Positions 17,721 to 34,758 of a stretch of 64,000 bases of DNA are shown here, piece by piece. Source of the DNA: Chthonomonadales bacterium. GTDB taxonomy: Bacteria > Armatimonadota > Chthonomonadetes > Chthonomonadales > CAJBBX01. Position 1 is the first letter of the stretch, and each line of letters starts with the position of its first letter. The translations under genes and the position numbers were made by a program. A model generated the notes under the pieces. That model saw only the letters and a program-made list of their open reading frames with translations. It was not told where the DNA came from and did not search any database. The stretch is taken from positions 186,001-250,000 of the forward strand of contig DAIDHP010000001.1 in NCBI GenBank assembly GCA_027459625.1, read 5' to 3'.

Positions 17721-18245
17721 CTAATTCCGATGTTTACTTCTCAAAAACCATAAGCCGCTGAAACCCGAACATAGGAGCGTGCTTATAACTCCCGGTTCGG
17801 GAACATTGGTGCCCGGTTGTTTAGGTGATGGAGTAAACAAAGGGCTTGGATCATTCGGAGTTAAAACTGGAGTATTATCCCTGCTAGAGGAGCCGGATGG
17901 TGTCAACGTAGATCCGCCAGTAGGCGCATTATTGAACGACGCCCCGTTTCCGCCCCCGCCGGAAAAAGAAAACCCAAATATGGCGCTTAATCCCGCGCCA
18001 ATCAACAGTGAATCGAGTGTTTTGTTGTTACGATAGCTACTGTGTTGTCCTTGATCTGTTGTAAGGTAATTACCTCCCTGGTCATAAGATAGATTTGAGT
18101 AGTTTTGACTACCGCCCTGGTCCTTAATAATTGGGTACAGGGTGATTGCGGATGCCGGCAATACAAGCGACATGGCGCAAATGAGCACCACCCCTCTGAT
18201 AGCCATCCATCCTGTCCATCTTTTCTTTCCTTCATGCATTGACAT
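17721..18245 (-). CDS. PEP-CTERM sorting-tail protein
   Basis: Exported protein of 174 residues. The N-terminus MSMHEGKKRWTGWMAIRG plus a hydrophobic stretch ending LPASA is a signal peptide. The mature part is low-complexity, rich in Gln, Gly, Ser, Asn and Pro (KDQGGSQNYSNLSYDQGGNY). The C-terminus is a textbook PEP-CTERM: VPEPGVISTLLCSGFSGLWF followed by the basic RSKHRN, recognised by an exosortase/EpsH-type system usually tied to exopolysaccharide export. No enzyme domain is seen. The ATG at 18245 has AAGGAAG upstream; a start 13 codons earlier (18284) is less likely. No exosortase gene is in the window. Confidence 0.85.
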   Translation of the reverse strand: MSMHEGKKRWTGWMAIRGVVLICAMSLVLPASAITLYPIIKDQGGSQNYSNLSYDQGGNYLTTDQGQHSSYRNNKTLDSLLIGAGLSAIFGFSFSGGGGNGASFNNAPTGGSTLTPSGSSSRDNTPVLTPNDPSPLFTPSPKQPGTNVPEPGVISTLLCSGFSGLWFLRSKHRN

Positions 18246-32574: not shown

Positions 32575-33660
32575 TTACTTTCCTTCCCTTTCCTGTGCCC
32601 CCTCCCATGTCACCGAGCTGATCCGAGCCGCTATCTGTTGCGCTATTGCTCGAAACGCCTTGGAGGATTCCGATGCCGGGGCGCTGACCATGGCGGGCTT
32701 GCCGTTATCCCCCCCCTGGCATACCAAAGGATCAATGGGAACTGCGCCAAGAAATGGAATCCCCAATTCCTTCGCGGCTCTCTTCCCACCGCCTTGGCTG
32801 AAAAGATGTGTCACCGTACCGCAGTGCGGGCAAACGAATCCGCTCATGTTCTCAATAATACCAAGAATAGGGATATCCCGTTCCGTACTTTCCCGCATCA
32901 TTTGGAACATGATGATGCTCTTGTTTGCAATCTCCTTGGCGACATCCTGAGGAGTCATCACCACCACTACTCCGGTCAATGGAATCAATTGCGCCAAGGA
33001 CATGGGTGCGTCTCCGGTTCCGGGCGGTAGATCCACTACCAAATAATCCAAATCATCCCAAGCCACATCCGTAAGCACCTGCTGCAGATATTTCGCGATC
33101 ATCGGACCTCGCCAGAGCACGGCTTTGTCCGGATTGATAAAGAACCCCATGGACATCATCTTCACCCCGTACTTTTCCACGGGGATGATTTTATTGTCCA
33201 TCATGTAGGGTTCCTCGTTCACACCCATCATCATGGGAATGGAGGGACCGTAGATGTCGGAATCGAGCAATCCCACACGGGCGCCGGTATCCGCCAAGGC
33301 GATGGCGAGATTACAGGAAACAGTGGATTTGCCAACGCCACCCTTGCCGCTGGCGACGGCGATTATATTTTTCACATTAGGAATCAGGGGCCCCGTCGGC
33401 GCATAACCGCGCACTGCGGCGGTCATCCGAATTTCCACGCCTTTAACACCGGGAAGTTTGGAGACCTTCTCCTCCGCCTCCGATTTCATCTTATCCTTTA
33501 CAGGACAAGCGGGAGTGGTCAGTTCAATTTGGAAAGAAACATGCCCATTCTCAATTTTCAAATCCTTGATAAAACCAAGGCTTACTATATCTTTGTGCAG
33601 ATCGGGGTCCTGTATGGAGCATAAAGCCTCAAGAATCTGTTTTTCATTCACTTCGCTCAT
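32575..33660 (-). CDS. Mrp/ApbC-type iron-sulfur cluster carrier ATPase
   Basis: P-loop ATPase of 361 residues that carries or transfers Fe-S clusters. The N-terminal MIP18/DUF59 domain (residues 5-80) starts EKQILEALCSIQDPDLHKDIVSLGFIKDL. The ParA-like ATPase has a deviant Walker A ASGKGGVGKST (about 103-113), DSDIYGPSIPMMMG, and LDYLVVDLPPGTGDAPMSLAQ. The cluster-binding C-x2-C is present in GFVCPHCGTVTHLF. An 18-base palindrome lies about 65-80 bases upstream and may be its operator. It is followed at once by nfo. Confidence 0.95.
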   Translation of the reverse strand: MSEVNEKQILEALCSIQDPDLHKDIVSLGFIKDLKIENGHVSFQIELTTPACPVKDKMKSEAEEKVSKLPGVKGVEIRMTAAVRGYAPTGPLIPNVKNIIAVASGKGGVGKSTVSCNLAIALADTGARVGLLDSDIYGPSIPMMMGVNEEPYMMDNKIIPVEKYGVKMMSMGFFINPDKAVLWRGPMIAKYLQQVLTDVAWDDLDYLVVDLPPGTGDAPMSLAQLIPLTGVVVVMTPQDVAKEIANKSIIMFQMMRESTERDIPILGIIENMSGFVCPHCGTVTHLFSQGGGKRAAKELGIPFLGAVPIDPLVCQGGDNGKPAMVSAPASESSKAFRAIAQQIAARISSVTWEGAQEREGK

Positions 33661-33723
33661 TTTTGTATCCTTTTCCCGGAGGCGTTCTTTATCTTTACGT
33701 CCTATCGCCTTGGGAAGACGTGA

Positions 33724-33741
33724 TGATCACATGTGTGATCA
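33724..33741. promoter_or_regulatory. Palindrome upstream of mrp
   Basis: Perfect 8-base arms TGATCACA (33724-33731) and TGTGATCA (33734-33741) with a 2-base spacer. It lies 64 bases before the mrp ATG and 144 bases before the riboswitch on the other strand. The half-site TGTGA/TCACA and the TTGAT/ATCAA-like edges recall CRP/FNR family sites, but the spacing differs from both. It is a good candidate for a dimeric repressor or activator site for either divergent unit. Confidence 0.5.
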
Positions 33742-33884
33742 AATATAGCCCTACTAATAATATACCGCCAACCCTCCCTTTTCGATATCCCGAAAAGCAG
33801 GCATTTCAACGGGTGGGCATAAGTTCTTTTTCAATTGAAAACTCTATCGCGGGGGCGGAAAGAAGATGCAGCCATGCGATAGCT

Positions 33885-33977
33885 CCCGCCGAATGGGAAA
33901 AACCGATGAAAATCAACGGCGGAAAGCCAGGCATCTTACATATCTACAATGGAGAGACAACCGGGCTGCCGAAGCGG
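33885..33977 (+). promoter_or_regulatory. GEMM-I type cyclic dinucleotide riboswitch (aptamer)
   Basis: The stretch reproduces the order of conserved GEMM-I elements. GGGAAAAACC (33895-33904) is followed by a short stem with a GAAA loop (GATGAAAATC), then ACGGCGGAAAGCCAGG (33916-33931) as the conserved internal core, a variable arm, and ACAACCGGGCTGCCGAAG (33957-33974) as the 3' side. GGCGGAAAGCC and CCGGGCTGCCGAA match, from memory, the sequenced GEMM-I/Ib aptamers of Geobacter. P1 can form between CCGC (33886-33889) and GCGG (33974-33977). The key ligand-specificity position appears to be G, which favours c-di-GMP, but 3',3'-cGAMP is possible. It precedes a PEP-CTERM-type gene, a common target of such switches. 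Confidence 0.72.
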
Positions 33978-34009
33978 ATTCAGCAGGATATCCTGCAACA
34001 CAGAATCCG
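33975..34009 (+). promoter_or_regulatory. Expression platform hairpin of the riboswitch
   Basis: CGGATTC (33975-33981) and GAATCCG (34003-34009) form a perfect 7-base outer stem enclosing the palindrome GCAGGATATCCTGC (33983-33996). The first arm overlaps the 3' strand of aptamer P1 (33974-33977), so the two structures exclude each other. No T-run follows, so the switch probably acts on translation or by a non-canonical terminator; the ribosome site AAGGAA lies at 34021-34026. Confidence 0.6.
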
Positions 34010-34035
34010 TTATCACGAAAAAGGAACGAATAATA

Positions 34036-34758
34036 ATGAAGAAACTGAATAGCATTTTGCTGATTGCTTGCCTTGCAGCGTAGTCCGTCCCAAGTAGGGC
34101 GTGCATGTTAAATATGGGGTTAAGTTTGAAGTACGGATCAAACACGCACATAGTGAGTTTAACTTACAATAACATTACCTATAGTAACGTAGGTGCGGAC
34201 GCATTATCCGCGACACTGACATCGACCAGTGCATTGCCGAAGGGGTATCCGTCATCCTTTGACACCTATTGCGTGGATTTAAATGACGATATCACGGTTC
34301 CCACATCCTATTGCGTGAGCATGCAACCCGTCAACAGACTCGCCAATTGTGGAGGGGTGGCATGGTTATACAATCAGCATGCAAACAACTTAATGGGTTT
34401 GGGACAACCGTCGACCAATTCCAGCAACGATCAATCCGCAGGCTTGCAAATAGCCATATGGAAGGTTCTTACGGATGGAGAAAACACGAATTTGGGAGCC
34501 GGTAATTTCCAATACACACAACCGGATCAGATCGTTTCGGATGCAAACTATTAACTAACCTAATGGGCGACCAGCGGTTACCAAACTGCGGACGCCACTT
34601 GGTTGGTGGGCGGTACGTATAAGAACACCACGAACCATGCTCAAAACATAATCAGTCCTCCTGTGCCGAAATCGAGTGTTTTCTCCCTTATGGGAGCCTG
34701 CATGATCGGGCTTACAACCTTCGGGTGGAGCTTGAAAAAAAGACGAACAGCATCTTAG
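34036..34758 (+). pseudogene. PEP-CTERM-type exported protein interrupted by three in-frame stops
   Basis: One continuous frame of 240 codons from ATG (after AAGGAA) to TAG at 34756, broken by TAG at codon 16 (34081), TAA at codon 173 (34552) and TAA at codon 176 (34561). Reading through them gives a signal peptide (MKKLNSILLIACLAA), a middle domain with FDTYCVDLNDDI, GGVAWLYNQHANNLMG and SAGLQIAIWKVLTDGE, a pattern I know from PEP-CTERM surface proteins, and a tail PVPKSSVFSLMGACMIGLTT followed by basic KKRR. There is no frameshift. The simplest reading is a recent pseudogene; stop-codon readthrough or base errors are alternatives. Its riboswitch and terminator are intact. Confidence 0.75.

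Follow-up and report, generated by a model that had tools for sequence, protein, structure and literature searches.

The question raised by this locus is whether a riboswitch-like leader RNA in a Chthonomonadales bacterium still works as a switch. c-di-GMP-I riboswitches are bacterial RNA switches that sense the signal molecule cyclic di-GMP (c-di-GMP), and an earlier note on the stretch of DNA analyzed here (64,000 nucleotides, hereafter the window) had described such a switch in working order. That note placed the element in the right family (GEMM-I), on the right strand and at approximately the right coordinates; it overlooked the broken key pairs of the aptamer and the pseudogene that follows it. 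The element is very probably a riboswitch fossil that is decaying alongside its pseudogene.

In a covariance search, RF01051 (c-di-GMP-I) was aligned over its full length (model positions 1-87 of 87) to 33886-33973 of the plus strand, scoring 21.4 bits against a gathering cut-off of 35 bits. The E value was 0.058 in a permissive Rfam scan of 33660-34110, where RF01051 was the sole match, and 0.136 per genome in a genome-wide search, and Rfam at the gathering threshold returned zero matches across the complete window. Because the score lies below gathering and the per-genome E value is high, covariance alone leaves the window aptamer undecided. Searching 61 related genomes with RF01051 yielded many strong matches. 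Tandem c-di-GMP-I aptamers, two to three within a few hundred bases, also occur in relatives (G010:C283:2919-3182, G040:C93:57368-57570 and G040:C116:12661-12861).

The origin of the element is settled by its position. The sister species, the only other genome of the genus compared (G001; approximately 91% DNA identity across the locus), carries an aptamer at C206:61185-61272 that matches RF01051 with 61.2 bits (E 2.4e-11), above the gathering cut-off under which the window copy falls. Its best call in the permissive scan was RF03167 (c-di-GMP-I-GGC), at 59.0 bits exactly the cut-off of that model. The two contigs are syntenic, with 9.3 kb aligned around the aptamer at 90.7% identity, and the two aptamers superpose without a gap in a base-by-base alignment. 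In public records, the sister is the MAG MAS4.bin79 (JAJZOL010000238.1), and a scan of named genomes for further orthologs of the locus gave this MAG alone. The window element is thus descended from a true c-di-GMP-I riboswitch. The covariance search had been proposed in the earlier note, which counted the lack of a significant hit among its grounds for rejection; the full-length alignment was obtained and the score fell short, and rejection on that ground would have wrongly dismissed an element whose sister copy reveals true riboswitch descent. Aptamers of the RF03167 type are frequent across the phylum, with 105 of 201 genomes matching at E<=0.01. The window copy is absent from the RF03167 matches of the genome-wide search at E<=0.01 (gathering 59 bits).

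A comparison with the sister sequence and the RF01051 alignment, in Vc2 base numbering (PMC3764141), gave the following features, all on the plus strand:

33886-33973, plus strand: degenerate c-di-GMP-I (GEMM-I) aptamer, full RF01051 length, ortholog of the sister aptamer.
33886-33891, plus strand: 5' strand of P1 (CCGCCG), the same in the sister and confirmed in the pairing check.
33896, plus strand: specificity base equivalent to Vc2 G20, a retained G of the c-di-GMP type as judged from the alignment.
33898, plus strand: C22 replaced by A, destroying the conserved C22-G45 pair.
33905-33914, plus strand: tip of P2 (GAU-GAAA-AUC), retained by motif and pair check, with its GAAA tetraloop at 33908-33911.
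33915-33922, plus strand: 3' side of P2, decayed, GGCGACGC in the sister and AACGGCGG in the window, with two P2 pairs gone.
33922, plus strand: C46 replaced by G, destroying the G21-C46 pair.
33960, plus strand: G83 replaced by A, destroying the conserved C44-G83 contact.

Much of the c-di-GMP-I architecture is still shared. The core motifs, including the GAAA-loop stem, stand in the order claimed in the earlier note; P1, the capped P2 and P3 are recognizable; the ligand-contact bases G20, A47, A48 and C92 are all retained; and the stretch from 33873 to 33897 has not changed at all between the two genomes. As in known members of the class, the element lies in a leader upstream of a gene for a secreted protein. 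It differs from them in its low score and in what its fold has lost. At the base of P2 the window has G-G and A-G where the sister has G-C (G21-C46) and C-G (C22-G45), and two further P2 pairs are missing. The C44-G83 contact keeps P2 and P3 alongside each other (PMC3764141). With C22, C46 and G83 gone, G21-C46, C22-G45 and C44-G83 cannot form in the window.

The changes are spread in the manner expected of random mutation. The aptamers differ at 17 of 88 positions, eight in the variable tip of P3 and nine in the structured core; at these nine core sites, the consensus base is found in the sister at eight and in the window at one (two-sided P 0.04). The window RNA forms 13 of the 22 consensus pairs, compared with 17 for the sister RNA, and the consensus pairing energy is +4.2 versus -11.2 kcal/mol. 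When 17 random substitutions were placed on the sister sequence, 4.1 broken pairs and 6.2 lost highly conserved positions were expected, compared with four and five observed; because the losses approximate the random expectation, no purifying selection on the window aptamer is apparent. The flgM c-di-GMP-I aptamer served as an internal control: between the same two genomes it differs at one of 101 positions, compared with 17 of 88 in the aptamer analyzed here (Fisher P 1.6e-5). The leader flanks are better preserved than the aptamer core (5 of 98 versus 9 of 54 differences; Fisher P 0.036). Recent decay is the simplest reading, with the difference due to chance or to an early loss of ligand binding, and residual constraint on, or function of, the leader could also be reflected. 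The window RNA has probably ceased to respond to c-di-GMP, and nothing here suggests an element that still works.

The flgM-leader riboswitch (contig C21:19292-19392 of the same genome; L001 1501-1601, minus strand; L033) belongs to the same class, and unlike the window element it is intact (72.3 bits), strictly conserved and at a separate locus. The product of its gene was identified as FlgM, an anti-sigma-28 factor, by PF04316. At six more loci in relatives (L011, L013, L015, L017, L024 and L028), the same order was confirmed, with a PF04316 FlgM protein behind an RF01051 match, which suggests that the timing of flagellar genes is under c-di-GMP control across the lineage.

The sequence beyond the aptamer retains the candidate switching partner of P1:

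33974-34010, plus strand: downstream hairpin with an outer stem of eight pairs (33974-33981 with 34003-34010), sharing 33974-33977 with P1.
34021-34025, plus strand: Shine-Dalgarno-like AAGGA, a putative ribosome-binding site.

P1 consists of six Watson-Crick pairs, 33886-33891 with 33970-33971 and 33974-33977. Because four bases are common to P1 and the outer stem, the two are mutually exclusive, and this part of the earlier note stands on paper. Its perfect 7-base hairpin stands in part: the palindrome (33983-33996) does form a hairpin, of five pairs closed by an AUAU loop (GCAGG-AUAU-CCUGC) inside the 8-pair stem. The hairpin region is nearly unchanged (34 of 36 bases at 33974-34009 are the same in the sister), and the conflict with P1 is present in the sister as well. 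In crude energies of isolated pair lists, the aptamer with P1 stands at -14.4 versus -10.4 kcal/mol for the hairpin in the sister, a balance that ligand could tip. The corresponding values in the window are -6.7 versus -16.9 kcal/mol, so by the same crude measure the hairpin should win.

A search of the window leader for terminator-like sites found none, and transcription termination at the downstream hairpin is therefore unlikely. The Shine-Dalgarno region of the sister, GGAGC (window 34023-34027), is complementary to a GCUCC just 5' of P1 (window 33882-33886). Taken together, the lack of a terminator-like site and this pairing favor translational control as the likelier mode of the intact switch. 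The window counterpart reads GGAAC, and this single substitution makes full pairing with GCUCC impossible; the Shine-Dalgarno site is predicted to be unpaired with a probability of 0.40 in the sister and of 0.81 in the window.

The gene behind the leader is broken as well:

34036-34758, plus strand: pseudogene of a PEP-CTERM protein with one TAG and two TAA codons in frame; the sister ortholog is intact (240 aa).
34081-34083, plus strand: premature stop TAG at codon 16, from the sister alignment.
34552-34554, plus strand: premature stop TAA at codon 173, from the sister alignment.
34561-34563, plus strand: premature stop TAA at codon 176, from the sister alignment.
34663-34677, plus strand: ruined PEP sorting motif, reading PKS (VPKSS) here and PEP in the sister and in six of six outgroup homologues.

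The sister protein, with which the pseudogene product shares 79% identity, has a signal-peptide-like N-terminal stretch and a PEP-CTERM sorting signal at its C-terminus, and it passes PF07589 (21.9 bits against a cut-off of 20.7). Judged by the marks of a PEP-CTERM protein (an intact reading frame, the PEP motif, a transmembrane stretch and a basic tail), the window gene fails, with its three stops and VPKSS, and the sister gene qualifies. The lost E and P of the motif, together with three glycines lost elsewhere, are invariant in all six homologues from other genera, and the residual open frame (34105-34554) lacks both the signal peptide and the sorting domain. PEP-CTERM proteins evolve fast, which makes the Ka/Ks of the pseudogene against the sister (0.31, at an ordinary Ks of 0.37; eight neighbors have 0.01-0.25 at similar Ks) weak evidence when taken alone. 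Protein changes number 11 on the window side and five on the sister side, a difference that is not significant alone (P 0.21). A loss of the entire PEP-CTERM or c-di-GMP system was considered as the cause of decay and ruled out; exosortases, other PEP-CTERM proteins and 9-10 GGDEF domains persist in both genomes. Elsewhere in the window, a weak PEP-CTERM motif lies at 17739-17804 on the minus strand (13.6 bits, below cut-off) within an open frame of 187 aa; the sister contig carries a counterpart at C206:77070-77135. No RF01051 match was found on the contigs that carry homologues of the protein in other genera (L044-L048 and L054), so the link between riboswitch and PEP-CTERM gene is seen only in this genus.

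These observations lead to the following probable history. In the common ancestor of both species, a c-di-GMP-I (GEMM-I, -GGC-like) riboswitch would have led the gene of a secreted PEP-CTERM protein. Binding of c-di-GMP would have stabilized P1 and the aptamer against the downstream hairpin, four of whose bases also belong to P1, and the choice between P1 and hairpin would have set the expression of the surface protein, in a direction of switching that is itself inferred. In the window lineage, the protein gene would have been inactivated by three nonsense mutations and the loss of its sorting motif, and the switch, now useless, would be losing its fold through near-neutral mutation. The death of the gene probably preceded that of the switch or roughly coincided with it; the comparison, which comprises two species of the genus, does not date the order of the two losses.

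Among the alternatives, a divergent c-di-GMP-I switch that still functions, perhaps with a changed ligand, and controls something like a shortened protein or a leader-derived small RNA is the one that survives best, and it is unlikely. It would account for the retention of G20, A47, A48, C92, the GAAA tetraloop, P1 and the downstream hairpin, and for flanks that are better conserved than the core. It would also have to accommodate the uncompensated loss of both P2-base pairs, two more P2 pairs and C44-G83, substitutions whose placement bears no relation to conservation, and a gene with three stops whose leftover frame encodes neither signal peptide nor sorting domain, all while the working flgM aptamer hardly changes between the same two genomes. 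A dead gene whose leader RNA is still under selection in a new role, such as that of a small RNA or an altered-ligand switch, is more doubtful still; the unchanged 5' strand of P1 and the preserved hairpin point in that direction. An assembly or sequencing error, with switch and gene in fact intact, is even less probable. The genome is indeed a draft in 114 contigs, but the neighboring genes are intact with normal Ka/Ks, and the broken gene is free of frameshifts; with approximately 107 point changes at the Ks of its neighbors, the damage is not error-like.

The fossil reading leaves the question of what the ancestral switch sensed. Base 20 is G in both the window and the sister, as the earlier note had correctly called it. 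A20 marks the cGAMP-selective GEMM-Ib riboswitches, and the A20G change turns a GEMM-Ib switch to c-di-GMP (PMC6456294). The retained G20 makes c-di-GMP the most likely ancestral ligand. The kinship with Geobacter GEMM-Ib sequences that the earlier note had suggested is not borne out: a functional 3',3'-cGAMP switch of the GEMM-Ib type is highly improbable, as the general GEMM-I architecture is all that is shared, base 20 is G where A would be expected (PMC6456294), and the sister copy fits the c-di-GMP-I and c-di-GMP-I-GGC models. 3',3'-cGAMP is unsupported as a ligand on the same grounds. A chance likeness without riboswitch ancestry, which the sub-gathering score, the per-genome E value and the finding that eight of 14 control genomes also give some RF01051 match at E<=10 might suggest, is refuted by synteny with an unmistakable aptamer at the orthologous position and has a negligible probability.

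The element is thus real and ordinary in kind: it descends, in degenerate form, from a riboswitch class already known. A literature search on riboswitch decay with pseudogenes found nothing specific in titles and abstracts. Its value lies in the comparison it affords: one locus in two species, with switch and gene intact in one and both decaying in the other, is a matched pair of riboswitch loss, and the intact flgM switch, also a c-di-GMP-I riboswitch, provides an internal yardstick. Other RF01051 matches below threshold, at about 20-21 bits, occur in relatives (G054:C6:278111-278186, G026:C165:9279-9400, G024:C165:5459-5522 and G023:C352:3694-3793), and some of these may be decayed riboswitches too. 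Riboswitch-like matches below threshold may be fossils, and synteny can resolve them where the covariance score cannot. Furthermore, the intact sister locus probably adds an exosortase-sorted PEP-CTERM surface protein to the genes under c-di-GMP riboswitch control.
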